A DNA stretch of 64,000 nucleotides from Sthenelais limicola (lineage: Eukaryota; Annelida; Polychaeta; Phyllodocida; Sigalionidae). The notes beneath the pieces were generated by a model. It did not search any database. It saw only the letters and a list, made by a program, of their open reading frames with translations, and was not told where the DNA came from. The stretch is taken from assembly GCA_942159475.1 (NCBI GenBank), contig OW804102.1, positions 27,162,873 to 27,226,872 of the forward strand, given 5' to 3'. How positions within the stretch are numbered: the stretch's first letter is position 1; the number at the start of each line of letters is the position of its first letter. Positions 10,541 to 61,400 of the stretch are shown in pieces. Position numbers and translations under genes: made by a program.

Positions 10541-10740
10541 AATGTTCAATAGAGAAGATAACTCTATTACTGGTCTGCCACCCACTTCTCCTCCAAGAGC
10601 TCTTCCCAAAGATCATCCACATATGGATCCAAACCTCTCCGCACTGCTTGTGCACGTGTCTCAAGTCTCCTGCACGAGGATATTTCACGAGGACGTTGTC
10701 CTTGAATTAATTGTTTCAAGCATCTATGTGGACATGAGCG

Positions 10741-11385
10741 AATGGTGAGAGGGAAGGGTGGGAGGATGGGGAGGAGGAGGGAAGGGGTGGGAGGAGTGAA
10801 GGGGTGGGGGGAGGAGGGAGAAGAAGGACAAAGGAGGAAGAAGAAGGAAGAAGGAGGAGGAAGAAGGAGGAAGAAGGAGGAAGAAGGAGAAAGAAGGAGG
10901 AAGAAGGAGAAAGAAGGAGAAAGAAGGAAGAAGGAGGAAGAAGGAGAAAGAAGGAGAAAGAAGGAGAAAGAAGGAAGAAGGAGGAAGAAGGAGAAAGAAG
11001 GAAGAAGGAGGAGGAAGAAGGAGGAGGAATATGGAGGAGGAATATGGAGGAGGAATATGGAGGAGGAATATGGAGGAGGAAGAAGGAAGAAGGAGGAAGA
11101 AGGAGGAAGAAGGAGGAGGAAGAAGGAAGAAGGAGGAAGAAGGAGGAGGAAGAAGGAAGAAGGAGGAAGAAGAAGGAGGAAAAAGAAGGAGGATGAAGAA
11201 GGAGGAAGAAGGAAGAAGGAGGAAGTAGAAGGAGGAAGAAGGAGGGAGGAGGAAGTAGAGGAGGGATCGAGGAGGAAGTGGAGAAGCGAGGAAGAGAGGG
11301 AGGAGGTGGCAGATGAGGAAAGGGGTCCAGGAGGAGGTAGTAGAAGTATAGAAAGAGGAGGCACTGTGTAGCAGGAGGAGGGGGT
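10741..11385. repeat. Purine-rich GGAAGAAGGA repeat tract (about 640 bp)
   Basis: Almost uninterrupted A/G strand built from AGGAAGAAGG and GGAGAAAGAA units, with an inner four-unit block of GAGGAATATGG (about 11028-11075). Long open frames here on both strands (RRKKEEE on plus, LLPPSSS on minus) are compositional. Mirror-symmetric purine tracts can adopt triplex structures. Confidence 0.95.
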
Positions 11386-11624
11386 ACAGGGGGGGGGGCG
11401 GGTAGTGTGAAAACAAGGGTACTGGAGGGGGTGGACCAGAGACCATCATACCATATAGCATGCAGGCTGTCTATATAGATACAGGCAGGTAGAGAGACAC
11501 ATGCAATCTGGATGCTTTACTCGTGTAGCACAATGCTCTAATAATAGCCCACTTATTGTCAATACATTACGCCACTTTAGAGCAGCAGACATCTCCCTTG
11601 CCGCATATACAGGCCATACATACA

Positions 11625-11660
11625 TGGCCAATTCCACCAATTTGACAACATTTGGCCCCC
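11625..11660 (+). repeat. Left terminal inverted repeat of the large transposon
   Basis: Starts TGGCCAATTCCACCAATTTG and ends CATTTGGCCCCC. It pairs with 22264-22299 with one mismatch at position 7. Confidence 0.85.
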
Positions 11661-12015
11661 AACCGTGGAAAGGGGTAAAATGGGCTTAAATCAAGTTAAT
11701 TATCATTTATTTGATTTTTTTTTTTGATAGGATGGTTCTACCAACCTGTGGAACAACATTTTTGGCATTTTTAGCCCAATTTTCTTTTTTTTTTTATTTC
11801 AAAATCCCATTTTTGAGGCAAAAATCATTTTTTTTAACAGCCAATAGTCCGTGGAATTGCTAAATTTCTAAATAATCTTCAAAATTGAACTTTTTTTTTT
11901 GTATGTTGTGATAGTAGGTTACGTGAATATGATCTGTGTAAAAAAAAAATGCAAAAAAAATATTTTTTGGCCAAAAGCCATCAAAAATCAAAAAAAAAAA
12001 TTGTGGGTACCCCCC

Positions 12016-12421
12016 CATGTCGTCTTCGTCACGCTGTGTGCCTAAGGTGGAATAAATAAATTTAAAAAAAAAAAAAACGTCAAATTTTGATGAATAATGA
12101 TAGAGTGCATGGGATTATATAGGTATAGAATATCAAATGTATTGATTTGAGTTTTTCTTGAATCGTAGCTGAGAAATAACATGGCGGCAAAAGGTCGTGG
12201 GTACCCTAGCCCATGTCGTCTTCGTCACGCCTATTTTATGGTTTTTAGAGCCTTACAAGGCATGAATTTAATAATAAACTTTAAATTTGACATTTATTAT
12301 TAAGTTTGCTTAATATCAATCTATGTAGACTGAAATTAATAATTTCTGAGTCGTTTTTGTATGATTTGTACGGCAAAATGCTTAAAAAACCTTCGTCACG
12401 CTTTATGTCGTCTTCGTCACG
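12016..12421 (+). promoter_or_regulatory. Left subterminal motif cluster (GTCGTCTTCGTCACG x3)
   Basis: Exact copies at 12019-12033, 12215-12229 and 12407-12421, plus a partial CTTCGTCACG at 12391. The first two follow GTGGGTACCC. All point the same way, opposite to the three copies at the right end. This arrangement resembles transposase-binding subterminal repeats; binding is inferred. Confidence 0.65.
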
Positions 12422-12424
12422 TAG

Positions 12425-12567
12425 TGTGGAACAGCTGAACTAAATTCGTAAAATCTCTAGAGCCGTCTAGCGTAAACGCTTGAAACTGCCGGAAGTTTCG
12501 TTGCAGACGATACTTTCTCGAAAGAAGTCATTGAACAAGGCAACTGACGAACTATTATTACTTTCTG
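12425..12567 (+). other. Putative 5' UTR exon of the transposase gene
   Basis: An exon end followed by a strong donor GTAGGT (12568). The matching acceptor TTTTTTCTAG ends at 13042, four bases before the start codon at 13046. The transcription start is not determined; the left boundary given is arbitrary. Confidence 0.35.
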
Positions 12568-12774
12568 GTAGGTATTTAAGTTAAATATATGTCATTTTTA
12601 TGTTGAAATAAGCAGATCTTGTGTCATAGAACACTGTAGTTGAATCAAAGGTTTCTGTACCAAAAGAAATCACCGTGTTTCAAAAAAAAAAATCTGATAC
12701 GATATCGGAGGTCATCTAGCAATGTAAACAACACAGCCATACTAGGCGATATAACCTTGGCCTTTGTTGTGGAT

Positions 12775-12803
12775 GGAGGGGGGGGGGCCGGGGGGGGGGG
12801 CAC
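12775..12803. repeat. Poly-G tract
   Basis: GGAGGGGGGGGGGCCGGGGG run within the putative 5' UTR intron. Confidence 0.8.
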
Positions 12804-13045
12804 CTGTTATAGATATGCTTTAATTAATAATTGACCTACTTTTGACACCCCCGACCCCTATAGGCACAAGCCCTTCACGAAATGCTAGATCTGCACGCTG
12901 AAACATTTTTAAGGAATGAAATATCCGGGAAATATCACAAATTCAATGTCAGACATAGCCTATCATAGGCTAAGATTTAAGATGCAATTTTCCCAATACC
13001 ATAAGAAATATTTTACCAATATAACTTTGATATTTTTTCTAGAAA

Positions 13046-13171
13046 ATGTCACGGATTACATCTGTAGAAGCCAAGAAGGCTAAAGCTGCTGAGAGGGCCA
13101 GGCTCTATCGTGCCCGAAAGGTGGCCACAATGGACCGTCATTATGTCATGATGAGTCGGGAACGAGCACAG
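13046..13171 (+). CDS. Transposase coding exon 1 (42 codons)
   Basis: Opens with ATG directly after an acceptor (TTTTTTCTAG) and ends phase 0 at CACAG|GTAATT. It encodes MSRITSVEAKKAKAAERAR and then RLYRARK, a Lys/Arg/Ala-rich segment. Confidence 0.75.
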
Positions 13172-14119
13172 GTAATTGTTTAATAAAAAACAAAAGATTT
13201 ATAAATGATTAATCTCAAGCAGGCAAATACTTTTAGCTTTTGATGTACCCTGACCGTTAGGGTAGGAGTACAGCCGGCCTTATGATTTTACATCAGAAAG
13301 ATTTTCTTTATATAGTCAGCTATAGGTGTACGACTCAAACATAGTAGACAGAAGTGACATGGATGGTATAATTGAATCAACAGCTGGCAAGCCTTAGCGG
13401 CTGGGAGTTGTTTCTCCCTGAAGCAGTGAACAGAATAATATTTTCTAATATTAATTTTAATATTAATATTTTCTAAACATTTGCAGGTAATTTATTTTCA
13501 TCCAAATAATTAATTTTCTGGAAGGCCAGTGTTAAACTCCCAGTAGTTCGGTGCAAACAGTGATCTCATCCTCTATCCTTATATAGCTGACCCAATAGGC
13601 CACGCCCATTTTACACCATACCGTACACATTCGATTTTTCTGCAATTCCAATCTATATATTTATACAATCTGTTTGAGTCGCACACCTGCACAAGGTATA
13701 AAAGTAGAAACAATTTCTTGCCACCGTTCATTCTTCAAAGCAAATCCAAGCAGCCAACATCATACACACTTCCTTACGCTCAAGTTTTCTGTTTGGACAC
13801 CCATCCAACGTTTTTTTACATATGAACTACATTTCTAACTACTTCCTATGTCTATAATCAAAAATGATTATGCCTTGATACTCTATGCTTGCGTATTATG
13901 TGAATATCTGTAATGGAAATAAAAGGCATTTGCAAAAACAAAAAAATATCCTAACCATATAAAGATATGTATTTGATATACACGTTATATTTCATTCTAG
14001 AAAAACTATGACGAAAAAAAAAAGAACATGACAGCAGAGGAGAAGGTTCAAGAGAGGATCCGAAAAGCTGCTGTAAAACAGGAGCAAAGGTTGAGGAAAG
14101 AAGGTGTGTATGACCAATC

Positions 14120-14152
<33 letters not shown>

Positions 14153-17100
14153 TTAATCCGGGGAAATTTGTAGTCCCTTACCAATGTAGCAAAATAACAA
14201 AATGGCACGACACAAGGGACACAGCATTAACGTCATTAGAATTGTAAGAGCCTTGATGGCAGTTTATGTTGAATAAAACATATATCATATACAAAAATTG
14301 TACAACATTTTGTACTTAAAAATTAATAATTTTGAATAGCTGTGCTGTTATCTAGTTATCCATACCAAGCCATATGCGCGGTTACATTGTGCGCAAAAGG
14401 ATATTAATATATGAAATAAAACACACAAATTAATAATCATTTTTAAAAAACCTGAATAAACCTGAAAAACTCACAAAACATAGAAGGGTAAACGTTATGC
14501 TAAAATTCAATGTTAAGTCTCCAATGGTTTGGTACAAACTGAAAAGCATAATCACTATGTCAGAATTCCTATGTTAACTCTCCAATGGGGCGGTCCAAAC
14601 AGTAAATACAGATGGCGCCACCACCGATTGGTTTTGTTCTGGTATAAATAGTGGAGAAATTCTGCAGCCACTCATACCGCTCTTCGCCGGCAAGCCGAAC
14701 ACTTCACCATATGAAACAACCCACTGCTTGAGAAGAGTTTTGTTATATTCAATACCGAACCCTTTCACTTATAGGTACAGACTGTTCTGAATGATGATAT
14801 TATAATATGTATGTGAGTTTATTGGGATCTAGAATATAATTTTTGTCCTAAATCTGTATACAACAATAAAAAATATACTTGGCATTGTCGTAGATGTACC
14901 TGTTGTAACATGATTATTTTCTTTACATGAAAGGTATTTTTTTTAAAGATTTTATTTTCACTGGGTACATCACCTCCAAGAGGAGTAGGATATATATTCC
15001 GTTGGAACCCAGCTTGGGCTATGAGTGACTATATACATAGGATAATAAGTGAGCAACACAAAGGACAAGATAGAACATAACCTCTTCCTGTGAGAGTGAC
15101 TTCTTCATTGATTATGAATACAAAAAATGCAAGCAGTGAATAAGTACCTCAAGGTTTTAGGGGGGCGTAATAGGGAGAAAAATTAGTGGAGATATTAAGT
15201 CATCAAGTAACTTGTTTGGACCGTACCATTGGAGAATTCTATGTTAAAGAAAACTAGCGTGAAAAAAGAGCTTCGAATCGCATAATGTTGTCATAAAATT
15301 AGTAGAGAGATTGATTGGACCGTACCATTGTAGAAATCTATGCTAAACTAAATAACGTGAAAAAAGAGCTTCGAATCACATATTATTTATGTTTCAAATT
15401 GTGAAATGGTAAGGAAATAAAAATCTGTTTAAAAAAAAGATATTATGTGATTATTGTTTTAATAATATTTTCTTTTTTAATTTACAGCTGCCGCTTCAGT
15501 CGCCCATGACACAAGCGCTGAACTGCCGACAGAAGGAGCCAGGATAACAGTCCCTGCTTCTGTTGCCGCTGCTGTTGCCGCTGCTGTTGCTGACCCTGTT
15601 GCTGCTCCCGTTGCCGCTCCTGTTGTCGCTTCTGTTGCCGCTCCTGCTCCTGTTGCCGCTTCTGTTGCCGCTCTTGTTGCCGCCCCTGTTGCTGCTCCCG
15701 TTGCCGCTCCCGTTGCTGCTCCTGTTGCCGTTTCTGTTGCCGCTCTTGTTGCTGCTTCTGTTGCCGCTCCTGTTGCCGCTCCTCGTGACAATCCTAAACG
15801 GACACTTGCACCATTATGGTATGATTAATATTCATTTGATAGACTAAGGCAAAAGTACCTCTAATTAGGATGTGATTACCTGATTATGAGAAAGAATTCC
15901 AAAAATCAACTTGTATTTTAAGAATTTATTTCCATGGAAGTGATCGTCCATGTGAAACTTGACCTAAACACAATGAAATTATATTTTAAATGTTTATTTC
16001 TATGGAGGTGATTATCCATATGAAATCTGTACTAAAACATAGATCAATATTTCTTGAAGGTTATGATAATTATGTCTATTCCAGGAATCGATATCATGCA
16101 ACAAGGAGTGGTGCTAATGGAGAAAAGCCCCTAACGATAAGTTGTTTAAATGAATATGAATATATTGTTTTTTAATTGCAGAGAGTAGAGCTAAGTATTT
16201 TGAATATCTTTTGAGGCATTTGAGATTATAAGGGCTGGTTTAATATATGAGATAATATAATTAATAGGTGATAATTAATATTTAATGAGGTTACCCAATG
16301 TTACGTTAAAAATCTCAAGGTTAAATTGCCAGTGGTGCGGTCCAAAAAAAAGGCATAATCATTCTAAAAATATTTCTATGTTAAATTGCCAATAGGGCGG
16401 TCCAAACAGTAAATGCAGATGGCGCCACCGTCAAATCGGTTTTGCACCGTACACATCGCCAAGTATAAATAGCGGATAAATTGCGCAGCTAATCATATGG
16501 ATCGTCGCCGGGCAGCTGGACACATCGCCGAACAGCGGTTACTGACAAATTTGAGAAGAGCCTTGTTATATTCACTATCAAACTTCTCTTATACAGGCAA
16601 AATCCCATTGCTTGAGCAAGAGTATCTGTTATATTCAATACCCTTACCCTACACAAACCTTGCCACAGCTTAACACTCCTTACTAATAGTCCCATATTTT
16701 TATGAGAAAAATATTATATCGAGTAAAATAAGATATTTGATAAGTCAACCATAATTAGTTGATAATCCCTCGCCGTCTATACTACACGCGTACAGTCCCT
16801 AGTAGGCTACTAGCTAGGTTAGATTTAACAACGTCAGCCGAGCTATACCCTGTACTGGGTTACATAATAATAGCAAGGGCTAGGCTATAGGTCCACTATA
16901 CTTCTAGACAACTGAGGCTACGTGCCTGAGTGGTCGAGAAGTATAGTACATTGGTAGCAGACACGATATATGTGGGTAAGATTTTCAGAAAATGTACAAT
17001 TGGCAGCTGTACTCATTTAGTAAATTCCGCTAAATTAGGCTCCAATTTGGTCAATATTAGGTAAATTCGAGTATATTTGGCATTGCATTGATCCTAGCAA

Positions 17101-19657
17101 TCTGTTTGGTTAGGTTGAACTTTATTTTGGTCTGAAATTTGGGTTATTTGAGAGGATTCGTGAAGACGAATTGTACATTTTTTGTAACCAACCGAGCGAA
17201 TTTGCCTTAACAGAAACACTTCTGCGACAGCCCTTGTCTTATAATGACTGTATGTACAGAGAATGACCTTTTGGTAACAGCTAGAATATATGTATTGGGT
17301 ATGACTTTTTGATGGCACATCGAGTAAACCTTTGTAATAGTGATAGGCTGATAGAAATATAAACGTACCAGGCATACTCTAAATACTAACAATTATTGAT
17401 TCACTATTATTATATTTCTCATTCTTGGTGTAAGTTGATTAAAGACTATAATTCGCCGTATCATTTTTAAAACCTGATCGGCAGGACTTTAATGAAATTT
17501 ATTAAACTGTTGATTTTTTCATATTGGTCTGGAATTTTTTAATATTTATTTATCTATTTCATTCTGGGTTTTTTCAGCGCACTTCCAGTTGCTATCTCCT
17601 TTAGCAGATTACCTGAGGTAAAGAAGCTGAAGCGGGAGCAAGCGAAAATGCTGGACAATCAGGCCCGAGCAATCCAAAAGCAACAGGACGACATGGAAAA
17701 GATCAAGAGGGACTTAGCCAGGAAGGAGGAAGAAGTGAAATGTCTGCAGGAGAAGATGAGAGGTGTACATGAGAAGACAATAGAGGAGGAGGCAGAGGAA
17801 ATTATCGCCCAGCATGATGTTGGTAAGTTGATACCATTACTTACCATCAGAGAGAGTATTAAATCTTCTAAAGTTTCGGACAAAAAGAATATTTTTTCAA
17901 CAGATTCTGGATCTGATTTCGGGAAAAAAATTCCAAGAGGTTTGAAATCAAAGGTTGCTTTGGAAGTTGGGGTAAGTCGACAGCTTTTAGGTAAACCTAG
18001 GATTAGACAGCCAAAGAGGGCAGAGTGGTCGGCCAAGAAAGCAATGATTAACGATTTTCTGATGCGTGCAGAGAATTCCGCCAGGCTCCCTTCCAGTAAG
18101 GACAATAGTTTGGGAGAGAGGTATGGTCTAACCAATACCATGACAGAATTGTTTAACGATTTCTGTAAAGAATATCCATCAGTGAAAATCGGTAAGAGCT
18201 TCTTCTTCCGCTCAAGGGACAGTAAGAAAATAAAGCTTCTGAAAGAAACAAAAAGGCGTGATTGTATGTGCAAGAAGTGCCAGAATATGTCCCGGTTAGG
18301 TTTGGCAGCAGGATTGAACTTTTTGAAGGATATGGAGACGGAGGAGGTCGAGGATAGGGCTGGGATCAATCTCAGGGGTAGAAAAGTGGTGACTTTTATT
18401 TTCTGGGAGAGGCAGGAGGTTTGTCTGAATGGGAGTACCTTCATGAACGACATGCCAGTGAAAAAGACCCTGAGGAAGGAGGAATTCATGGAGCTGCTCA
18501 TATCATCACACACTGCATATTTGAGCCATGTCAGTCGCTATCGTCACCAAGCAAAGACTGCCAGGGAGGTCAAACAGAATATTTCTATTACAGAATGTAT
18601 TCTGGAGATTGATTATGCTGAGAATTATGGCTTCATCTACCAAGATGAACCTAGTTCTATTTATTATTCCAGACCACAGGCTACCATCTTCTCAAGCGTA
18701 GCAACATTCAAGAGAGATGGTGAAAAGGTGACTAAGAGTATTGGAGGCATTTCTGAGGAGATGAAACACGCTGCTCCTACTACTCTTTCATTTTTGTCAC
18801 ATATAATTCCAATGATCCGTGAATTAAATCCGGATATAACTATTGTCCATATTTTTAGTGACTCCCGATCATCACAGTTCAGGAACAGATACATTACGCA
18901 TCTTGTCTCACTGGCTCCAAAATTATTTGGTGTGGCTATGACATGGTCCTACCATGAGAGTGGACATGGCAAGTCAGCTTGTGATGGGGTGGGAGGTTCG
19001 TTGAAGAGTAAGGCGGAAAATCTGGTAAAGACAGGAGTCATAATGAGTGATGCTAAAACATTAGCCAAGGTCCTCAAATCGTCAGGGATTCGTACAGAAA
19101 TTGTGTACGTGTCTGCAAAACATATAGAAAAAAGCAGAGCAAAAATGGAAAAATGGCATGTGTCGCCTGTGGTTGGATTGATGAAACAGCATATGGTATG
19201 TCCCTTCAATGGTCATTTGTATGTTCGCAGTGTTTCCTGCTTTTGTGATGGTTGCTCTATCTTAAAGAATCAACTTCCCCAATGTGACGGTTGGGAAAAG
19301 TTGAAAATATCTGCATTAAAAAATGAGGCCTTGATGGAACAAATCCCGGAGGATGAAAATAATTTAATAATAAATAAAGAGCATGAAACAGCGTTGGTTG
19401 ATGTAGAATTGGCTGAATATTATGGGTCTCAAAGTGAAGATGAAGGGGATGGTGGGGAAGGGATCGAGGATGGGGAGGAGGAAAATCTGGATAAAGATGT
19501 TGCTAATCTGATTCCAGAGGCAGAAACCAGTGTTCAGAAAGAGGTTCGAAGGAAGAGAGGGAAGGGAGAGAAAACAAGTATTGGAGAGGGAGGGAAGAGG
19601 AGAAAGTCGACGAGGTGTGGCAGGTCCAAATCAACCTATTTTATGTTCATGGATTAA
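13046..19657 (+). CDS. Transposase of the large DNA transposon (spliced, 879 aa, Sola-like)
   Basis: Coding exons 13046-13171, 14001-14103, 15488-15818 and 17578-19657 join in frame (2640 nt with stop). All introns are GT-AG, of 829, 1384 and 1759 bp. Residues 1-75 are very basic and charged (AERARLYRARK, then EKKKNMTAEEK), likely nucleic-acid binding. Residues 95-180 are a Val-Ala-Pro repeat linker. Residues about 203-270 are a heptad-rich coiled coil. The core has LEIDYAEN (D532), HIFSDSRSSQF (D615) and HGKSACDGVGG (D656), which fits strand-1, strand-4 and helix carboxylates of a DDD/E nuclease fold; E667 is an alternative third acid. Cysteine clusters CMCKKC (416-421) and CFCDGC (741-746) could bind zinc. 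The C-terminus is acidic, then Lys/Arg-rich (RRKRGKGEK), a probable nuclear signal. The lack of internal stops suggests a recently active element. Superfamily assignment to Sola is inference; a domesticated derivative is less likely because the inverted repeats survive. Confidence 0.8.
13530..13950 (+). repeat. Promoter-like repeat module 1 in intron 1
   Basis: Begins TGTTAAACTCCCAGTAGTTC, has the box GTTCGGTGCAAACAG, the TATA-like GGTATAAAAG (about 13695) and a polyA signal in GGAAATAAAAGG. It shares its box and TATA arrangement with modules at 14.5, 16.3 and 20.6 kb. It resembles the LTR or core promoter of a short retroelement, but no TG..CA boundaries or primer site could be fixed. Confidence 0.4.
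14001..14103 (+). CDS. Transposase coding exon 2
   Basis: Acceptor TTCATTCTAG before 14001 and donor GTGTGT after 14103, ending in phase 1. It encodes KNYDEKKKNMTAEEKVQER and then a basic stretch ending RLRKE. A donor two bases later would lead to an early stop in exon 3, so 14103 is chosen. Confidence 0.75.
14120..14155. repeat. AAT microsatellite
   Basis: About ten AAT triplets in intron 2. Confidence 0.9.
14505..14900 (+). repeat. Promoter-like repeat module 2 in intron 2
   Basis: Two tandem boxes (CCAATGGTTTGGTACAAAC and CCAATGGGGCGGTCCAAAC), then CAGATGGCGCCACC, the TATA-like GGTATAAATAG and CGCTCTTCGCCGGCAAGC. A possible polyA signal lies in ACAATAAAAAATA. It is homologous to 16.3 and 20.6 kb. 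Confidence 0.45.
15205..15390 (-). repeat. Inverted module: two GGACCGTACCATTG boxes
   Basis: Two tandem units of about 100 bp, each GGACCGTACCATTG...ATGYTAAA...GAAAAAAGAGCTTCGAATC. They are reverse-oriented relatives of the GGTCCAAAC boxes. A third unit is at 20820-20925. Confidence 0.55.
15488..15818 (+). CDS. Transposase coding exon 3 (Val-Ala-Pro repeat linker)
   Basis: Acceptor TTTACAG before 15488 and donor GTATGA after 15818; it enters in phase 1 and leaves with two bases that complete a Cys codon with exon 4. About 250 bp of CCTGTTGCCGCT-type repeats encode a VAAPVAAS-type low-complexity linker, then DNPKRTLAPL. The repeat is also open on the minus strand and in another plus frame; those readings are artefacts. 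Confidence 0.7.
16240..16549 (+). repeat. 310-bp direct repeat, copy 1 (promoter-like module 3)
   Basis: Nearly identical to 20510-20819. It contains GTTACCCAATGTTACG, GCCAGTGGTGCGGTCCAAAA, GCCAATAGGGCGGTCCAAAC, GATGGCGCCACC, the TATA-like AAGTATAAATAGCGG and ATCGTCGCCGGGCAGCTGG. It lies in intron 3. Confidence 0.8.
16974..17190 (-). mobile_element. MITE family A copy nested in transposase intron 3
   Basis: Begins GGGTAAGATTTTCAGAAAAT and ends CGAATTGTACATTTTTTG. It sits between coding exons 3 and 4 of the transposase, so it inserted after the large element arose or after a copy landed here. Its right tip has decayed. Confidence 0.7.
17578..19657 (+). CDS. Transposase coding exon 4 (catalytic core)
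   Basis: Acceptor TTTTTTCAG ends at 17577. One base completes the split codon, then GCACTTCCAGTTGCT runs in frame to a TAA at 19657. This 693-codon exon carries the coiled coil, all three candidate catalytic aspartates (codons at 18611, 18860 and 18983), both cysteine clusters and the acidic then basic tail. The reverse-strand open frame inside it is a shadow. Confidence 0.85.
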
Positions 19658-19725
19658 TTTATAAATGTAACGTATTGATAATTTATATTTTACATTTGTT
19701 TTTACGAATCAATTTCATTATGAAT

Positions 19726-19731
19726 AATAAA
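19726..19731 (+). terminator. Polyadenylation signal of the transposase gene
   Basis: AATAAA 69 bases after the stop codon. Confidence 0.6.
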
Positions 19732-19818
19732 CAGATGTCTATCGAAATTATGATTTCAAACCTCGATATTATATTATGTTAAAATGACTCTCTGATTGTA
19801 AGAAATGGTATCAACGAA

Positions 19819-20204
19819 GCCTCTATCCAAGCCTCATATATATATGGTCGTTACTGTAGGCATCTCTTTTCATGCATTTATGTTCGACAGAATGGCCTCT
19901 AAATAGCGAGCAGAAACCGTTTTTTTTTAGAAAAAAAACCAGTTCATATTCACTTAACATATTCACCACCTTATATACCTGGCAGCTTCCAGAAACAGTG
20001 CGGTCCAAACAAAGTATATGGTCATTCCTGTAGACATCTCTTCTCATGTATTTATTATTGATCGATAGAACCGCACACCTCACTCTTGTTTAGCTGGCTA
20101 TATAAAGAAAACATGATAGTCCAAGGAAATGAGAAGAAAAAATTTTCACACGTAATATCTTACATACTGACTTTATTATTATCCTTTGAGGCTTGGATAG
20201 AGGT
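19819..20204. mobile_element. Inverted-repeat-bounded segment (about 386 bp) 3' of the transposase gene
   Basis: CCTCTATCCAAGCCTCA at the left and its exact complement TGAGGCTTGGATAGAGG at the right. The interior has two related units containing ATGGTCRTTNCTGTAG, CATCTCTT and CATGNATTTAT. It could be a small nested element or a fold-back. Confidence 0.5.
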
Positions 20205-20291
20205 TTTTGGGAGGCAGATATTTATTTATATATTATACTTATTGTAATTATGACAGAGTGATAATTTAATATATGTAATATATGTTACAGG

Positions 20292-20358
20292 ATTTATACA
20301 TCCGTGATATACTTAAAAAGTATTCCTTTCGTGATATACTTAAAAAGTATTCCTTTAT
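20292..20358. repeat. About 30-bp tandem duplication
   Basis: CGTGATATACTTAAAAAGTA followed by TTCCTTT, present twice in tandem. Confidence 0.85.
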
Positions 20359-20509
20359 CAACTGTTTCGCTTCTTACGATTAAGGATGATGGAGGATGGG
20401 ATACTCCATGTTGTAAATATATTGAATATGTTCCAGTATTTATACATCCATAAAATGTTATAGCATATATAATTACTCTCCTATGCCTTCCCTGCCTAGC
20501 CCAGGCTAC

Positions 20510-20819
20510 GTTTAATATATGAGATAATATAATTAATCGGTGATAATTAATATTTATTGAGGTTACCCAATGTTACGTTAAAAATCTCAAGGTTAAATTG
20601 CCAGTGGTGCGGTCCAAAAAAAAGGCATAATCGTTCTAAAAATATTTCTATGTTAAATTGCCAATAGGGCGGTCCAAACAGTAAATGCAGATGGCGCCAC
20701 CGTCAATCGGTTTTGTACCGTACACATCGCCAAGTATAAATAGCGGATAAATTGTGCAGCTAATCATATGGATCGTCGCCGGGCAGCTGGACACATGGCC
20801 GAACAGCGGTTACTGAAAA
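20510..20819 (+). repeat. 310-bp direct repeat, copy 2 (promoter-like module 4)
   Basis: Near-identical copy of 16240-16549 placed downstream of the gene. After it comes an inverted box unit (TTTGGACTGTACCATTG, GAAAAAAGAGCTTCGAATC) also found at 15.3 kb. Confidence 0.8.
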
Positions 20820-21307
20820 ATTAGTAGAGAGATTGTTTGGACTGTACCATTGTAGAAATCTATGCTAAACTAAATAACATGAAAAAAGAGCTTCGAATCA
20901 CCTAATGTTGTCATAAATTGCTACCTATATGTGATATTCCATTTATCTGCCTCGTCCCATGCAATTTACGTTCCACACCTGTGATACATTTTTTAAAATG
21001 TTTATTCTTTATCTGCCTCCTCCTTCCATGCGATTATTTATTATTTCTACCTAGATGTGATTAATTCATGTACTGTTCGGTATATTTAATGTGAAAATAT
21101 CATTTTGTTATATTGCTATAAATATGTTCCAGGAAGATTACTTCCGTGATAAATATCAAACAGAAATCTGTGATATGGATATGGATATGTGATATCTTGT
21201 TCTTATATATGATCTGAGGAACAGTGATATTACCATTAAGGTTGTCTGGGTGTGATATACCTCGATTAATACCTGGTTTGCTGATAAAAATCTAAATCTT
21301 AAATCTT

Positions 21308-21755
21308 AAAAATTCTAAATTTTACCCTTCGGAAAGTATCTAAAAATTATAAATTGTTAATGAACTAATGTGTAAGGTTATAGAGCAGAGATCTTTAAAA
21401 TTGCTTATATTTCATGATTTTTCATGATTTTGTGACGAAGACGACATTTCTACCCATAGCAATGCTTGTATATGGGAGTTCCCTGAAATTAATATATTGT
21501 ATCTATAGTATTTGAAACTAATATATTAATTAAAAATTCTAAATTTTACCCTTCGGAAAGTATCTAAAAATTATAAATTGTTAATGAACTAATGTGTAAG
21601 GTTATAGAGCAGAGGTCTTTAAAATTGCTTATTTTTCATGATTTTTCATGATTTTGTGACGAAGACGACATTTCCTCCCCATAGCAATGCTTGTATATGA
21701 GAGTTCCCTGAAATTAATATATTGTATTTATAGTATTTAAAACTAATATATTGTA
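21308..21755. repeat. 227-bp tandem duplication in the right subterminal region
   Basis: Two direct copies beginning AAAATTCTAAATTTTACCCT, about 227 bp apart. Each contains TGTGACGAAGACGACATTTC, so the duplication multiplied the subterminal motif. Confidence 0.85.
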
Positions 21756-22083
21756 AAGGTTTAGACATAAGTCTTTACTGGAAAAAAACATTAGTGTCTG
21801 GTAAAATGTTATAATCTTTTGAATTGGATTTTTTCCCCCACTATTTATATTTATATAAGACGTTACTTTGTTAGGCAATGCCCAGAAGTAAAGCTGAACA
21901 TATAATCTTATTTCCAGCACGATTTGTGATCAAATCATAAACATTTACTGTCATAATTCATTTTATATTAATTTCGAAGGCTATTCCTATACATATTATA
22001 TGCTATGGTGACAAATAAAATGAAAATATTAACCTAACTTGCATTTTATGTTTTCATTCACACAGCGTGACGAAGACGACATG
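21431..22083 (-). promoter_or_regulatory. Right subterminal motif cluster
   Basis: Inverted copies of the left-end motif at 21431-21445, 21655-21669 and 22066-22080 (the first two with T for C at the first base). The last extends to the 25-bp match described for the whole element. Confidence 0.65.
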
Positions 22084-22263
22084 CTATTTTGGGCATTTTT
22101 TTCATATTTGGAAGCTATTTTTCGACCCCCCTGTAAAAAAATAACTAATAATCAGAATTGTTCCATACTTGGTAGTTCAATGCGCATATATATAAGGTTG
22201 ATAAAAAACACCAACTCAACTGATTAATGTAAAATTTATTTTTGGGTACCCAGGGGGGGTCTA

Positions 22264-22299
22264 GGGGGCCAAATGTTGTCAAATTGGTGGAAATGGCCA
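22264..22299 (-). repeat. Right terminal inverted repeat of the large transposon
   Basis: Reads GGGGGCCAAATGTTGTCAAA then TTGGTGGAAATGGCCA, complementary to 11625-11660 with one mismatch. Confidence 0.85.
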
Positions 22300-22495
22300 C
22301 ATACTATACGGCAGGTGCTCCTATCAGAAGCTCTATTGTTATCTCCGCAATACACGGCTCAGGCCGTCAGAAAGTATACACTTGGCAACTCAAAATATTT
22401 AGTAAATTCTACTAATTTCTACTGAAAAATGACAAATACTAGGTATATTTGGGTATATTTGCTGTTGCATAGATTTAAAGAATATTTTCTGTAAT

Positions 22496-26330: not shown

Positions 26331-26869
26331 ACATACCTATACGTTGTGTAGATATAACCCCATGCTTTATGGCAGGGTGCAAGAAAGGGGTTGATTGATA
26401 AGACACATGCCATATCAGCTTGATTGCCGTAAACATTTAGATAATTCATATTGCTTCCTTATCAAAACATAATATTTACATTCAATACTGTTCTTTGCCA
26501 GGCGGGTATAATTATAGCGGTGGATGGAAATCGATGCCCCGGTAATCAAAGTATGTGTGGCCCCCTCGCCCCATTCTCTCTAGTTAAGGTAAATAAAGAA
26601 CAGTTGTTTATCAATAAGTTGTATTATCGGCCCAATACAAATAGTGCAATACTAAAACAATTGTTTGATCTTCAGACAAACTAAGCTAATTAGGTATAGA
26701 TTCAGGTTACCGCTCATGGCTAGGGACGCGGTTACCCTATACAGCTAACTAGAGCTGGGTTCGCCTGTCATGTCTACTTACCATAATCACAGGCCAACAG
26801 AAATCAATGTTAACTATTTCTTTAAATGGGAATGGAAGTATGGGAGTAAACATACACATCTCCCGCACC
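26331..26869. other. Unassigned intergenic sequence
   Basis: No supported gene or element. Confidence 0.5.
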
Positions 26870-27510
26870 TGTCTCTAGATCTCCTTCTGTCTCTCACTCT
26901 CTCTTTCTCTCACTGTCTGCCTTTCTCTGTCTTTCTCTCCCGTCCTCTCTCTCTCTCTCTCCGACTTCACCACCTCTCTCCCTCCCTCTCGCTCCCACTC
27001 TTTCCCGCTTCCCCATCTCTACCTCCTTCTCTGCCCCTCCCTCTCTCTTCCTCCCTCTCCTTCTTCTCCACGTCTCTCCCTCTCTCTCTCTCCCACTCTC
27101 TCTCTCCCTCCCCCCACCTCTTTCCCTCTTCCTCCCTCTCTCCCTCCCTCTCTCTCCCACTCTCTCTGTCCCTCCCCCCACCTCTTTCCCTCTTCCTCCC
27201 TCTCTCCCTCCCTCTCTCTCCCTCCCTCTCTCTCCCTCCCTCTCTCTCCCTCCCTCTCTGTCTTTCCCTTACCCCTCTCTCTCTCCCTCTCTCTCTGTCT
27301 TTCCCTTATCCCCTTCTCTCTCCCTCTCTCTCCCTCTTCCCCACCTCTCTCCCCCTCTCTGTCTCTCCCTTACTCCCCCCTCTCTCTCCCTCCCTCTCTG
27401 TCTCCCTCTTCCTCACCTCTCTCTGTCCATCTCTCCCTCCCTCTCTGTCTCTCCCTTACTCCCTATTTCTCTCCCGTTCTCTCCCTCCCTCCCTCCTCCC
27501 TCTCTCATGT
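26870..27510. repeat. Pyrimidine-rich CTCTCTCCCTC tract (about 640 bp)
   Basis: Almost pure C/T strand with loosely periodic units CCTCTCTCTCCCTCC and CTGTCTTTCCCTTA. The 258-codon Leu/Ser/Pro frame over it and the reverse Arg/Glu frame are compositional. Confidence 0.95.
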
Positions 27511-27869
27511 CCACATGTGCACATAAACCACTTATACACATGGTGATACCAATGACTGGGTAGCAGTGATGGGTTAGTGAGTAGTATAGAAAAATGTTTT
27601 TTTGTACCAACAGTTTATTCCAATTTCTGACAGTAGAAATTCTGTTTTTGACACCTAGCAACAGAACTAAACAACAGATATCTTTAGCACACTCTATTGC
27701 ATCTCATTGGGCTCCACCCACAGATGAACGTTATGTGGGTGTATGAGCTCATCACCAACACCAAAGTTTGAAAATAAAATATAGTTTAGCTAGTCTTCTG
27801 TCTGGATTACTGACATTACTGACATGGTTTCTCTATTGCTCCTTCACTATCATCTTTTTGATGCAGGTA

Positions 27870-41099: not shown

Positions 41100-42349
41100 C
41101 ACATTGTACCCTTCCAAACTGCTACCCCCCTAGTTCCCTGAATGCTATTAATTAAAACTGTTGAATACTGTAATTGTTAAGACAGTCTATGTTCAATAAT
41201 AACTGTAAGAACTAGATTCATATAAATACTATGATGTAAGTTGTTACTTCTATGTTTCTTCTTTCTTGGGACATAACTGGAAGACCTGCCAATGACGCCA
41301 GTTGGTTTTTCTCCTCATTTTATTGATCATTATTTTAATGATGAAATAAAGACAAAAATAAATAATGATGATATGATGATAATAGTAATATATAGCTCCT
41401 TGGTTATAGATACAAATGAATTCTGGCGACATTGGAATATTATGTTTTGCACTTTGTGATTGTTTACTGGGCTCCTTTCTAATTAACAAGCTGTATGGTG
41501 GAACAAGCATATTCAGTCAGAGGGGTGTTGTACAAGGAAATTCAACGATAGAATGGCATTCCGTCCTCGTTGGGGCCTAGAAAGGAGTATGAGAAGCTAA
41601 GATTAACCCTCTGTTGCACAATAAATAAATGTTTAAAAGACTTAGAAAATCCTTGAGGGTGTTCATAACTTTGTCTAGGTCCCAATGAACGAGCACCTAT
41701 GAATTGATTGTGCAACAGGTTCTCGTTGGTAGGGCAAAGAACCAGCAGGTATTTTTACGAATTTCAACGAGCAACAGAGAGGCTACAGACAGCCACAAAT
41801 ATGCAACAAACAGGCGCTGTGCAACACCCCCAGATGCAACTTCTGGGCAGGCATGAGTTTTAATACATTATCCAATCAAATGCTTCGGGTGCATTGCACT
41901 ATATACAAGTCCGTGTTAAATCACTCTTATAGAGGCCTCGAAACTCCTTCTTAGCAAGAGTTGCATTGCATATATATACGATTATTTTTCTGAGACTAGT
42001 CTGAGATAACTCTAAGAGACCTCTTACCTCGCTCAAATGCATGAGTTTCAATGCAACAACCCTGGTATCATAAAGCCCTCATAGTCGTAAATTTAAGAGG
42101 GTGTTATCATTTGAATAGATACAGATTCTATAACTTATGATTAAAACTGAATGAGGTGAAGTGTAATGCGGATGGCAGAGTGCCAGGAGCAGGAGTAGGA
42201 GTGGGAGCTGGCGTGGCACTAGTTACCAGCCATTGTTTCCCACCAGCTGCTGCTGGAGTGAAGAGAAAGTTGACACGAGGAGAAAAATAAAGTTGTTATT
42301 GTCAAACTGAGTCGGGCACTCGCCCTTCGCTGCCCTCCTCTCACGCCAC
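41100..42349. other. Unassigned intergenic sequence
   Basis: About 1.2 kb with an ATGATGAT-type stretch near 41.36 kb. No gene recognised. Confidence 0.5.
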
Positions 42350-43310
42350 TTAATTGTCTGAGCGGGAGTAGGAGCAGAGAGGGGGAGGAGCTGAGTGGGG
42401 GAGGAGTAGAGAGGGGGAGGAGTAGACAGGAGGAGGAGCAGAGGGGAGGAGGAGCAGAGAGGAGGAGCATGAGCAGAGAGGAAGAGGGGTAGAGAGGAGG
42501 AGGAGCAGAGGGGAGGAGGAGCAGAGAGGAGGAGGAGCAGAGGGGAGGAGGAGCAGAGAGGAGGAGCATGAGCAGAGAGGAAGAGGGGTAGAGAGGAGGA
42601 GGAGCAGAGGGGAGGAGGAGCAGAGAGAAAGAGCATGAGCAGAGAGGAAGAGGGGTAGAGAGGAGGAGGAGCAGAGGGGAGGAGGAGCAGAGAGGAAGAG
42701 GAGTAGACAGGAGGAGGAGCAGAGGGGAGGAGGAGCAGAGAGAAAGAGCATGAGCAGAGAGGAAGAGGGGTAGAGAGGAGGAGGAGCAGAGGGGAGGAGG
42801 AGCAGAGAGGAAGAGGGGTAGAGAGGAGGAGGAGCAGAGAGGGGGAGCATGAGCAGAGAGGAAGAGGGGTAGAGAGGAGGAGGAGCAGAGGGGAGGAGGA
42901 GCAGAGAGGAGGAGCATGAGCAGAGAGGAAGAGGGGTAGAGAGGAGGAGGAGCAGAGAGGGGTAGGAGCAGAGAGGAGGAGGAGCAGAGAGGAGGAGCAT
43001 GAGCAGAGAGGAAGAGGGGTAGAGAGGAGGAGGAGCAGAGGGGAGGAGGAGCAGAGAGGAGGAGCATGAGCAGAGAGGAAGAGGGGTAGAGAGGAGGAGG
43101 AGCAGAGGGGAGGAGGAGCAGAGAGGAGGAGCATGAGCAGAGAGGAAGAGGGGTAGAGAGGAGGAGGAGCAGAGAGGGGTAGGAGCAGAGAGGAGGAGCA
43201 TGAGCAGAGAGGAAGAGGGGTAGAGAGGAGGAGGAGCAGAGGGGAGGAGGAGCAGAGAGGAGGAGCATGAGCAGAGAGGAAGAGGGGTAGAGAGGAGAAG
43301 CAGGAGCACT
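42350..43310. repeat. Purine-rich minisatellite GAGGAGGAGCAGAG (about 960 bp)
   Basis: Composite units built from GAGGAAGAGGGGTAGAGAGG, AGGAGGAGCAGAGGGGAGG and AGGAGCATGAGCAGAGAGG. Overlapping minus-strand Leu/Ser/Pro frames of 350-462 codons result from the repeat. Confidence 0.95.
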
Positions 43311-43520
43311 GCGGGGAGGAGCAGAAGCTTGAGAGGAGCAGGCAGAGAAGGAATAGGAGCAGGAGTAGGAGAGGAGCAGGAGCAGGAGCAGAGCAGGACC
43401 AAGAATAGGAGTAGGATAGGAGAGAGGAGCAGGACAAGGATGGCAAGGAGTGGAGGACAAGGATTGGAAGGAGTGGAGGAGCAGGCAGGGGGGAGGAGGG
43501 AGGAGGCGGAGGGGTAAACT
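43311..43520. repeat. A/G-rich low-complexity tail of the minisatellite
   Basis: GGAGCAGGAGCAGGAGCAGA and GGAGTAGGAGAGG variants without regular period. Confidence 0.8.
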
Positions 43521-43549
43521 GCCCTGCCCCTCTAGCTCCACCCTAGGGT

Positions 43550-43735
43550 TAAATACACATCTGCTGTCCTGACCTGATAGCAATGACATACAAATTGTTT
43601 GATGCACAATATTGATTTCCAGGTCCTTTTTTCTGGGCTCACTGTGGCTGGATGACAGAGTGAGACGGCGGAGGTTAGAGGCCTGGTGATGTACGCTCTC
43701 ATAATGCTGGCTTTATGAACCTGGGGGCCGCACTC
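43550..43735. other. Short non-repetitive island between purine tracts
   Basis: About 185 bp of ordinary-composition sequence (for example CCTGACCTGATAGCAATGAC) between two long A/G arrays. No coding frame; possible conserved noncoding DNA. Confidence 0.3.
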
Positions 43736-43739
43736 TCCC

Positions 43740-44215
43740 CCCGGGGGAGCTGTGGGGGGGGGGAGGGGTAGAGGGGGAGGGGGAGGGGGAGGGGAGAGGG
43801 GGAGGGGAGAGGGGGAGGGGAGAGGGAGGGGTAGAGGATTGGGTAGGGGTAGGGGAGGGGAAGAGGGATTGAAGTAAAGGGGAGAAAGGGGGAGGGGAGA
43901 GAGTGATGGTAGCGGGGGAGACACAGGGGGAGGGGGAAGATGGGATGGGGAGTAGGGGAGGGGAGCAGGGAGAGTGGAAGAGGCAGAATAACATGAGAGG
44001 GGAGGCGAAAAACGGAAGGAGGAAGAAAGGAGAGGGAGCGGGAAAGGATGCAGAAGAAGGTCTGAAGAGGAGGAGAGAAAGAGGGGTGGATGAGAAGGAG
44101 CAGGAGGAGGAAAAGGCGGAAAAGAAGTAGATTGAGAAAGAGGATGAATGGGGAAGAAATGTCGGGAGGAATGAGAAAGAGGTGGAGAAAGAAAAGAAAG
44201 AGTGGTACATGAGGA
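43740..44215. repeat. Purine-rich GGGGGAGGGGAGAGG tract
   Basis: A/G-rich strand with GGGAGGGGGAGGGGAGAGGG units grading into GGAGAAAGAGGAAG. Open frames are compositional. Confidence 0.9.
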
Positions 44216-45232
44216 AGAGGAGAAGACTGGGGTAGAGGAAGAAGAGAGGGGCAGGTGCTGAGTAGGCAGAATCCTACAGGTGTCGGTGCGTATCGGCCGC
44301 TTACAGCGCACTCTTTAAAATATCCCATTAAACTTGTCGGAAACTCGTATGAAACTATTTAGCACCAGAAAGTGAGTCAGCTGCACTGCTTCCCTCGAGC
44401 TCTCCCGCTGGCACAAGTAGAGAAACAAGAAGCAATAAAGTAGCGAGACATGGGCGAGTCAACTGAACGCAGGTAGGAGTGGCTCGGGTGGAGGGCGGTG
44501 TGACCGACCCATCGTTTATTATTCACACCCACCCACACCTTAATACAAATACTGATTGCAGTCCTCCTGCCTTCTCCCCATCTACACCACCGACTCTACC
44601 GATCCCAGCACCAACACATTATTTCACAGAGACAGCTAAAAGCCTTTGCTCGTTCTTTTTCCCTGACCATATCAGCGCCATACAAGTGAGTGAGGAGGAG
44701 CATGGGGCCTGCGTAATGACCCCCGGTCACACTGATATTGGTGACGTAAAGCACAGAAAGTGATGATGAGGACACAGATCTGCCATCAGCGCCTGGTAAG
44801 CGGGACAAATAGACGCTGGGCGTGTTGTCATGCGAGCAGCGCCGTGCTGCGGCCACTGTGAGCACTACTAGATAGCGTAGATAAGGCTGAGACGCACAAA
44901 GTTGTGTCTAACCACCGCTAGACTGCGCTGTGTCTAAGATCTTGGTGTGTAACTAGTCTGGCAACCCGGGGGATTCCTGCCTCCTGATAAACAGGCGAGT
45001 GTCGCAGGAGCCATGTTCGTGTTCTCTCAACAACATGCTTTTCTTTACTTCTGTCTCACCAAATCACATCTAGTGACTCAAGGAAAAATCACTTTCTGTA
45101 AAATTTGTTTGCAGCTTCCCACCTTTAAGAGATGCCTTTTGACACCGGAGCACTTCATAGAAAGGTTTGTACCATGGCGTTTGTAAACAATATATTATCA
45201 AGGTCGTTATTTGCGTTGCTTCCTTCTCTTAT
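44216..45232. other. Unassigned sequence
   Basis: About 1 kb of balanced composition with no recognised gene. Open frames of 89-94 codons on opposite strands overlap each other and have no domain. Confidence 0.45.
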
Positions 45233-45467
45233 GGGTCAGATTTTCAGAAAATGTACAATTCGCCTTCACCAATCCTCTCAAATAATCAACATTTAAGACA
45301 AAAATGAGCTTCAAAATGCAGTTAAACATAACAGAACTGATACTTTAAATCACTTCGATACCAAATATACCCAGATATACCCGGTATTTTTCATTTTTCA
45401 GCCTTATTTAGGAAAATTTCCTAAATGTGTAGAGCCGCCAATTGTACATTTTCTGAAAATCTGACCC
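45233..45467 (+). mobile_element. MITE family A copy, full length with TTAT flanks
   Basis: GGGTCAGATTTTCAGAAAAT at the left and TTTTCTGAAAATCTGACCC at the right. TTAT on both sides is a clear 4-bp target duplication. It is the best reference copy of the family. Confidence 0.85.
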
Positions 45468-45544
45468 TTATAGAGCATAAATAGATGTGCTTGTAGGACA
45501 GGTGAGATGATGATAATGCACCCGGTAATGCATGCATGAATGCA

Positions 45545-45618
45545 CCTGACAATACAGCTGATAATGCAGCTGATAATGCAGCTGATAATGCAGCTGATAA
45601 TGCAGCTGATAATGCACT
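45545..45618. repeat. 12-bp tandem repeat (GCTGATAATGCA x6)
   Basis: Six exact or near-exact units; each contains CAGCTG. Confidence 0.95.
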
Positions 45619-45664
45619 CCTCATGTCCACTGCAAATGACTTCATGTCCACATCCCTGAGCTTG

Positions 45665-46330
45665 GTGGACTCCCCCCCCCCCCCATCCACAACCTCCCGC
45701 CCGCTTCGCTTCCTCTACTGTAACTGCTCTCCTCCACAACCAGGGCTTTTGCCTGCCTGGCCCCTCCTCTGCTCCCCACTGTTTACCCCAATTGCCACCC
45801 TGCCCCTTCTACCCCACCCAACTCACCCCTCTGCTTCCTCTCTCACCCCTATGCTCCCTCCCCACCCCCTCTACTCCCCCTCTCACCCCCTCGTGAGGTC
45901 GTCCTCTTACCCCCGCTGTTCCCTCACCCCTCTACTCCCCCTCTCACCCCCTTAGGTCGTCCTCTTACCCCCGCTGTTCCCTCACCCCTCTGCTTCCCCT
46001 CTCAACCCCCTGCTCCCTCCTCACCCTCTCGGCTCCCTCCTCACCCCCTCTACTCCCCCTCCTCCCCCTCTGCTCTCCCTCTTACCCCTGCTGTTCGGTC
46101 ACCCCTCTACTCCCCCTCTCACCCCCTCTGCTCCCTCCTCGCCCCTCTACTCCCCCTCTCACCCCCTCTGCTCCCTCCTCGCCCCTCTACTCCCCCTCAC
46201 ACCCTCTCTGGTCCTCCTCTTACCCCCCTACTCCCTCAACCCCCTGCTCCCTCCTAACCCCTCCTGGTCCTCCTCTCACCCCCGTACTCCCTTACCCCCC
46301 TGCTGCCTCCTCACCTCCTCAGCCCCTCCA
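45665..46330. repeat. Pyrimidine-rich CCCCCTCTCACCCC tract
   Basis: C/T-rich with loose units CTCTACTCCCCCTCTCACCC and TGCTCCCTCCTCACCCC. There is a poly-C run at about 45672. Confidence 0.9.
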
Positions 46331-46379
46331 TCCCTCTGTACCTGAAAGAACCGCTTACAGCAGTAGCAGGCTTTACCTC

Positions 46380-46600
46380 AGCTGATGAGCCTGAGGCCTC
46401 AGCCAGCCTGACTACCAGCAGTTGCTGCGCCAGTTAATGGATGGAAGGTTTGATTCATGAACGGGAAATATTTGTCATCTTTAATATCATTAGCGATTGG
46501 TTGCCAGCCAGGATGCGGCTCATGAATCAAGGCAAGTGAGTGGCTGTGCTTCTCCACGGTTAATTGATGGAGTAAGAGGAGGGCACCAGGTGGGTGCAGG
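46380..46600. other. Non-repetitive island, candidate regulatory DNA
   Basis: About 220 bp with GCGCCAGTTAATGGATGG, TTTAATATCATTAGCGATTG and GGTTAATTGATGG, i.e. several TAAT/ATTA homeodomain-type cores, between low-complexity tracts. Function is not shown. Confidence 0.25.
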
Positions 46601-59672: not shown

Positions 59673-59760
59673 CACAATCGTATTAAATATATCTATACAT
59701 TTCTAAACTCATTCTATTGAGTATATTAATGTGCTTTATTCAGGAAATATCATTACATCC
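59673..59760 (-). mobile_element. MITE family C, right part after the retrotransposon
   Basis: TTAAATATATCTATACATTT then CTAAACTCATTCTATTGAG continues the family C sequence broken at 57807. Confidence 0.6.
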
Positions 59761-60795: not shown

Positions 60796-61009
60796 TTTCT
60801 TCCACTGTGTAGTCATTCTCCAGCACATCAGTCTTTTTATGGATCTATTGCCATTATCTCTCATTCTCATTATTTTTTGTTCTTTTCCAAGGTCTGACAG
60901 GCGTTTCTTTTCTGAGTTTTAAAAATCTAGCCACAGATCTGCCCACTGTGTTATGCCTGTCTTACTCCTGATTTTAGAACAATAACCAACTTTAAAATAT
61001 TCACTAGAT

Positions 61010-61400
61010 TTGTTCTCTATCTCTGTCTGTCTCTCCCTGTCTCTCTCTCATCTGTCACTCTTCCCGTCGCTCTCTTTCTCTCTCTATCCTGTCTCCCTCC
61101 CATTACCTCCTCTCTCCATCTCCCCGTCTCTCTCTTTCTCCTCTTTCTCTCTCTCCATCTCCCCGTCTCTCTCTCTCTCTCCATCTCCCCGTCTATCTCG
61201 TTCTCCCCTTTCTCTCTCTCCATCTCCCCGTCTCTCTCTCTCTCCATCTCCCCGTCTATCTCGTTCTCTCCTCTCTCCATCTTCTCTTTCTCTCCTCTCT
61301 CCATCTCCCGTCTCTCTCTTGTTCTCTCTCTCTTGTTCTCTCTCTCTTGTTCTCTCTCCCTCTCCTCGTCTCTCTCTTTCTCATCTTTCTCTTTGTCGCT
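61010..61400. repeat. Pyrimidine-rich CTCTCTCCATCTCCCCGTCT tract
   Basis: C/T-rich, with a loosely repeated unit CTCTCTCCATCTCCCCGTCT and a terminal TCTCTTGTTCTCTC triplication. Leu/Ser/Pro and Arg/Glu frames are compositional. Confidence 0.95.

Follow-up and report, generated by a model that had tools for sequence, protein, structure and literature searches.

Sola transposons are known but little studied. Their transposases are described as DDD enzymes of the RNase H-like type (PMC10741241, PMC8230255, PMC3985635), and the DDD triad together with 4-bp target-site duplications are published marks of the superfamily (PMC10741241). According to the latter source, Sola elements mostly measure 2-9 kb, some exceeding 15 kb, and carry inverted repeats of 11-1,124 bp. 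Repbase assigns elements to Sola by sequence convergence with the Sola1, Sola2 or Sola3 transposases (PMC4455052). The slime-mould Sola2 elements DFa-2 and PPa-1/4/5, as described in PMC3627910, encode a transposase of 888 residues, and a Fanzor gene is a feature of these elements. Their 4-bp duplications are AT-rich, with the pattern AWWT, and their terminal inverted repeats span 12-21 nt. The element reported here lies in a 64,000-nt stretch of the Sthenelais limicola genome, hereafter the window, and encodes a predicted transposase of 879 residues. It resembles the slime-mould elements in the similar size of its transposase, in having terminal inverted repeats and in its AT-rich 4-bp duplications, ATAT and ATTT being common to both, and differs from them in its longer inverted repeats (35 nt) and in a broader ANNT pattern that includes ACAT, ATGT, AGCT and ACGT.

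Element boundaries and target site

The inverted-repeat scan paired positions 11625-11660 with 22264-22299 (36 nt, 97% complementary, before trimming of target bases). The 36-bp repeats of the original prediction are thus present, but their true length is 35 nt (34/35 matching): the outermost T and A belong to the target, so that the element covers 11626-22298 (Table 1) and its termini read GGCCAA. When two 35-nt window positions were drawn at random 200,000 times, pairs less than 200 bp apart being skipped, the best pair reached 28/35 and none 34/35. This copy of a large DNA transposon is complete and very young. The Rfam search of the window returned no match at the gathering threshold.

Of 31 copies examined, the window copy included, 29 had two ends, and all 29 are bordered by perfect 4-bp ANNT duplications. 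Two copies, c9_L025 and L036, were left out of this set, their right end being absent from the retrieved piece, and for copy c1, which has two right ends, the inner one was used. Eighteen of the 29 duplications are AWWT (ATAT 15, ATTT 3), and the other 11 are ACAT, ATGT, AGCT or ACGT. The predicted 4-bp duplications are therefore borne out, although not as the ATAC proposed for the flanks: the window copy duplicates ACAT, and ATAC is visible on both sides only as a consequence of the wider target, which in most cases reads T-ANNT-A. Our first reading, a 2-bp duplication, was abandoned, since the A and T around the 2-bp core are invariant (29/29 copies), which pointed to 4 bp. The choice was decided by non-T end variants, found at 34 places in the genome (10 retrieved, 6 with the right end in the piece), as the T predicted by the 2-bp reading is absent from 6/6 of the informative ones. 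In three of these six the duplications match at 4/4 positions (ACCC, ATAA, AACA), in one at 3/4 (ACTC/ACTG), and two show no matching duplication (TCTC/ATAC, ACAA/ACTG). The 4-bp ANNT duplications and the end variants likewise do not fit Tc1/mariner, characterized by 2-bp TA duplications (PMC10741241), while the TTAA duplications that mark Kolobok and piggyBac (PMC9587614) occur in 0/29 copies.

Empty sites are present for two other copies. For the window copy, none was found among the 40 candidates scored out of 1,955; the full matches in this search were two halves only, the rest being right-flank repeat matches.

Towards each end, a 15-mer is repeated at three sites, those on the right being inverted, and occurs nowhere else in the window with up to 2 substitutions. 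At least three plus-strand sites of this motif, a probable transposase-binding site, were also found in all 28 remaining two-ended copies.

Table 1. Positions of the element, its gene and associated features in the window
Feature	Position	Strand	Description and basis
Left target-site duplication	11622..11625	.	ACAT; comparison of copies
Whole element	11626..22298	+	10,673 bp; GGCCAATTCC...GGAAATGGCC; ends set by 29/29 two-ended copies and non-T end variants
Left terminal inverted repeat	11626..11660	+	35 nt; 34/35 versus right repeat
Subterminal motif, left site 1	12019..12033	+	GTCGTCTTCGTCACG; motif scan
Subterminal motif, left site 2	12215..12229	+	motif scan
Subterminal motif, left site 3	12407..12421	+	motif scan
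Coding exon 1	13046..13171	+	residues 1-42; reading frame; L049 retains the frame and splice sites, with an excess of synonymous differences
Coding exon 2	14001..14103	+	reading frame; comparison with L049
Coding exon 3	15488..15818	+	12-nt (VAAP-like) repeat array; open and phase-compatible in L049
Coding exon 4	17578..19657	+	Lys/Glu-rich region, CxC motif, DDD catalytic domain, acidic tail, stop; reading frame, alignment, model
Private G	18867..18867	+	three other full-length copies have C; replaces P617 by R next to D615; copy comparison, alignment
Subterminal motif, right site	21431..21445	-	1 mismatch; motif scan
Subterminal motif, right site	21655..21669	-	1 mismatch; motif scan
Subterminal motif, right site	22066..22080	-	motif scan
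Right terminal inverted repeat	22264..22298	-	partner of left repeat, 34/35
Right target-site duplication	22299..22302	.	ACAT; comparison of copies

The transposase gene and its relatives

The four predicted exons join to 879 codons and a stop through GT-AG introns, the exons, junctions and open frame originally proposed being confirmed in the sequence. L049, an 86% relative from the same genome, keeps the four exons, the splice sites and an open frame of 860 aa. Between the window gene and L049, the one relative on which the selection test rests, dN/dS is 0.23, with weaker constraint on exon 3 (0.62) and on the C-terminal tail (0.72); the gene is under purifying selection. Support for exons 1-2 comes entirely from the comparison with L049, within the same genome. 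BLASTP and phmmer detected no homology between these exons and distant relatives (best 17.3 bits, shuffle median 19.6), and 438 of 2,000 shuffled sequences equalled their score against a profile of the relatives' N-terminal module, a test whose leave-one-out controls passed 10/10 with 0/500 shuffles each.

The catalytic residues D532, D615 and D656 stand where they had been predicted. D615 and D656 are present in 136/136 alignment rows and D532 in 135, the remaining row having a gap. The modelled core displays the strand/helix order of an RNase H-like domain, and VIA-align places retroviral integrases at the top of its structural neighbours, which also include the Mos1 mariner transposase. With these enzymes the predicted core shares its RNase H-like fold and, as judged from the model, the expected positions of the three acids; sequence identity amounts to 6-14% in the 50 rows listed. 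Foldseek itself reports no PDB match at E <= 0.001, and the viral structure library none at the same threshold. The proposed Pfam search of the 879-aa protein yielded no usable match, nor did NCBIfam and PDB sequence searches, the sole Pfam match up to E 10 being DUF2769 (E 0.74).

Relatives are encoded in many contigs and include proteins of Ostrinia, Mya, Brassicogethes and Bemisia; the wider family comprises 1,481 matches among 7,995 scored candidates. Among the matches listed, none was recognised as a labelled Sola protein. The nearest ones in the tree are P0001, P0002, P0010 and P0011, in sets of 4 and 5 rows (support 99/93 and 100/99), the window row itself forming a long branch (2.44). 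These four proteins are 27-34% identical to the window protein (BLASTP) and have motifs in common with it; P0001 and P0002 begin at about the start of window exon 4, and P0001 possesses a C-terminal repeat region that has no counterpart in the window protein. None of the 45 pattern matches in IMG/VR, and none of the 36 in the prokaryote genome collection, was confirmed as a relative. No paper came up in a literature search on Cc8L18.2, the name of two relatives.

Copies in the genome and recent activity

The additional copies with the same termini anticipated by the original prediction were found. The full-length element with its gene sits at four loci, each with different flanks, the three further copies being 99.71-99.95% identical to the window copy, and the catalytic exon has 28 near-complete genome matches in four identity tiers. 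The genome of 1.1 billion bases also carries many short non-coding derivatives, and exact ANNT-flanked ends number 1,015, against 0 for a reversed-pattern control. Recent activity is well supported for the family, because a pair of full-length copies, located on different contigs, shows no difference over 10,674 nt, and short copies reach 99.93% identity.

The intactness attributed to the window copy holds for its complete structure, yet is qualified by a substitution adjoining the second catalytic aspartate. In the FSDSRSSQF motif, D615 is in place, but residue 617 is an arginine private to this copy (1/136 rows), where L049 and the three further full-length copies carry proline. The window copy may therefore be structurally complete with its own protein inactivated by P617R, other copies driving the family; judged from the alignment, the chance of this falls somewhat short of even, since residue 617 is variable across the 136 rows (A 84, S 28, P 14, C 9) and may tolerate change. 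In c1, one of the other full-length copies, intron 3 no longer has its AG acceptor.

Classification and proposed mechanism

The DDD triad in a modelled RNase H-like core and the 4-bp AT-rich duplications match published Sola traits, and we consider the element a probable member of Sola, with Sola2 the best fit as judged by published descriptions; it would most likely represent a new family of this known kind. The Sola-type assignment of the original prediction thus stands as the best one, the complete DNA transposon, the triad and the duplications being supported and Sola itself resting on its published marks. The length and introns, regarded at first as unusual, are not: 10,673 bp and 35-nt inverted repeats fall inside the ranges given for Sola (PMC10741241), and some Ginger1 transposase genes are described with 1-4 introns (PMC2836005).

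Some features might instead suggest a lineage outside Sola, an undescribed superfamily likewise combining DDD, 4-bp ANNT duplications and the same mechanism. Pfam, NCBIfam and PDB are devoid of a usable sequence match, the window row sits on a long branch, and the likeness to Sola is drawn from published descriptions rather than labelled Sola sequences. However, triad and duplication size are both published for Sola (PMC10741241), the AT-rich duplications resemble those of Sola2 (PMC3627910), and with 1,481 family members among the candidates a superfamily of such size seems unlikely to be undescribed; we regard this alternative as unlikely. Slightly less probable still is its specific form, in which the window protein, P0001-P0017 and the family of more than 1,400 proteins around P0007 would constitute a non-Sola superfamily without a Pfam model, using a 4-nt stagger that reads an A..T frame (ANNT in T-ANNT-A), with a currently jumping member here. 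Ginger2, as described in PMC2836005, duplicates 4 bp at an AT-rich target of 6 bp, RTATAY, similar to T-ANNT-A, and has an integrase-like fold in common with the modelled core, whose top structural rows are retroviral integrases. In contrast, its termini are TGTNR and not GGCCAA, and it encodes a DDE integrase with an H2C2 finger, whereas the third triad residue here is D and Pfam reports no integrase (rve-like) domain; a Ginger2-like element is thus very improbable. Even more so is the capture or domestication of a host gene within old inverted repeats: the gene has introns and sits within a multi-copy repeat, but it accompanies the ends at four loci whose flanks differ, the model of its core shows an RNase H-like DDD domain, and its relatives are spread over many contigs.

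We view the element, with high confidence, as a young cut-and-paste transposon that is autonomous and most likely belongs to a new Sola2-type family. The spliced gene would produce the transposase, which would bind the inverted ends and perhaps the subterminal 15-mers; the DDD active site would then cut the element out, by cut-and-paste rather than copy-out chemistry, and join it to the target where the two strands are nicked with a 4-nt stagger at ANNT, mostly within T-ANNT-A. Filling of the gaps at these nicks would generate the 4-bp duplication. The short non-coding derivatives are presumably mobilised by the same enzyme.

We know of no biochemical study of any Sola transposase. Identical full-length copies, a gene under purifying selection and a precise target rule open the cut positions, target recognition and the roles of the three acids to direct tests, and the derivatives hint at the end sequences needed. 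As the Pfam cut-off was reached by 0/9 relatives tested, such transposase genes may stay without a name in many genomes.

The element and its transposase gene

A whole DNA transposon lies on the plus strand of the window. Its inverted repeats, first noted in the original prediction, are confirmed, random pairings within the window being far poorer (at best 28/35 in 200,000 draws). The four exons proposed there, joined across GT-AG introns, give 879 codons plus a stop. L049, an 86% relative and the sole one compared across the gene (from a fetched sequence that excluded its right end), preserves the start codon, the three introns, the splice sites and the phases, and its reading frame of 860 residues is open. 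Between the two genes, dN/dS is 0.227 overall and 0.106 for residues 331-770; exon 3 (0.62) and the tail (0.72) stand higher. Synonymous change is saturated in exons 1 and 2, with 36.5 of 45.7 synonymous sites differing, as against only 46.5 of 176.3 nonsynonymous ones. This one comparison supports the predicted four exons and selection for function. Counting against the gene model, exons 1 and 2 have no match in distant relatives. In c1, one of the full-length copies, the AG of intron 3 is gone. The minisatellite of exon 3 is replaced in L049 by a different Ala/Thr/Pro repeat.

Regarding the three GTATAAATAG-box repeats, two are 94-98% alike. L049 matches them at one place in the opposite orientation, which suggests nested insertions or mobile promoter units. 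The reverse transcriptase frame, by its resemblance, probably belongs to a non-LTR retrotransposon, and the open frames in the low-complexity tracts are probably spurious.

Features of the window
Feature	Position	Strand	Remarks
DNA transposon	11626-22298	plus	
Coding minisatellite	15550-15790		exon 3; 12-nt, VAAP-like repeats
GTATAAATAG-box repeats, related, ~0.25-0.32 kb	14503-14748, 16238-16560, 20510-20831		element introns and 3' part
Repeat present twice, 72% alike	16985-17092		intron 3
Same repeat	22367-22474		just beyond the element's right end; part matches 38 other scored genome places at 78-82%
458-aa open frame	58306-59682	minus	reverse transcriptase domain RVT_1, E 4e-29
Low-complexity tracts	10567-11516, 26749-27563, 42219-46385, 60931-61480		several frames yield long, overlapping open frames

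Target-site duplication and empty sites

A 136-base left-end probe had 1,141 candidate places in the genome (1.13 Gb, 161 contigs); 40 were scored, and every one matched at 99-100%. Thirty copies from these places and the window copy formed a sample of 31, from which two were left out for want of a right end; of the two right ends of c1, the inner was taken. All 29 two-ended copies carry a perfectly duplicated ANNT 4-mer (ATAT in 15, ACAT in five, ATGT in four, ATTT in three, AGCT and ACGT in one each). Immediately outside it, 22 copies have T on the left and 25 have A on the right, a preference indicating that the wider target is usually T-ANNT-A. The window copy is flanked by ACAT; the ATAC initially reported is wrong, being a by-product of this wider target.

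A 2-bp duplication with a T and an A fixed in the element would yield an identical picture and an identical empty site, and end variants were therefore sought. Genome-wide, 1,015 exact ends have ANNT flanks, 57 a non-A first base and 34 a non-T fourth base (controls 0), these being counts of ends and not of copies since some right ends also fit the patterns. Both ends were seen in six of ten non-T copies fetched: the unusual base stands on both sides in three, three of four bases match in one, and in two the flanks disagree. The T predicted by a 2-bp duplication is absent from all six. The duplication is thus most likely 4 bp.

Empty sites were found for two other copies. That of L029 lies in a repeat which this copy itself contains (247 nt at 97.6%, gapless at the junction), and that of L031 corresponds to units of the tandem repeat into which it inserted. 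For the window copy none was found among the 40 of 1,955 candidates scored, the only full matches being two half-flanks.

Copies, age and a subterminal motif

Further copies, which the original prediction led one to expect, do exist: three other full-length ones share 99.71% (contig C3), 99.95% (C6) and 99.95% (C1) identity with the window copy. The C6 and C1 copies are identical over 10,674 nt, yet differ in flanks and duplications; the window copy differs from them in five alignment columns, four of which are private to it. The remaining 25 two-ended copies are derivatives of 1.4-2.9 kb with mutual identities of 91.3-99.93%. In seven short copies aligned to the element, the left ~800 bp is retained, as is the right ~220 bp in the six whose right end was found, both at 88-97% identity. 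The catalytic exon has 28 genomic matches covering at least 1,546 of its 1,556 bases (five at ~100%, three at 97-98%, twelve at 90-94%, eight at 85-86%), plus 16 partial ones. The second right end of c1 lies ~110 nt past the first (locus L009/L010), and in L049 an inverted right-end piece (665-805) adjoins the left end; both may be left over from aberrant transposition or repair.

In the most likely mechanism an active transposase would bind the element ends and then cut, perhaps with clean excision, and insertion at ANNT would proceed through 4-nt staggered nicks. GTCGTCTTCGTCACG occurs three times less than 0.8 kb from the left end and, inverted, three times less than 0.9 kb from the right end, all putative binding sites. 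The 28 other two-ended copies each have three or more of these motifs on the plus strand, in some cases with extra ones in 20-nt steps; in L029 an insert displaces part of the set. With up to one substitution allowed, the 25 short copies yielded no inverted motif, and the left set may suffice for movement.

Classification

Published marks of Sola include a DDD transposase, 4-bp duplications, lengths mostly of 2-9 kb with some above 15 kb, and inverted repeats of 11-1,124 bp (PMC10741241), all of which the element shows. In slime moulds, Sola2 has AT-rich (AWWT) duplications and, in one case, an 888-aa transposase (PMC3627910); among the copies examined here, AWWT accounts for 18 of 29 duplications. 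Curated Sola1 consensus elements of bivalves average 5,445 bp (PMC10294476). Ginger2 shares the AT-rich 6-bp target, but its termini and domain are absent from the element (PMC2836005). We consider the element, by these published marks, a probable Sola2-type transposon; the criterion used by Repbase is sequence convergence (PMC4455052).

The relatives' proteins (P0006, P0007, P0018-P0135) make up a transposase-like family that is very large and has no Pfam model. None of nine relatives tested reached the Pfam cut-off, and source names among the relatives listed include transposase once and Cc8L18.2-like twice. Searches outside Repbase and Dfam found no earlier description of the element's family. 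The initial observation is sound overall, apart from the ATAC flanks and an overstated rarity: the element represents a new family of a known kind that has been active recently, and its youth, complete structure and precise targeting make it useful.
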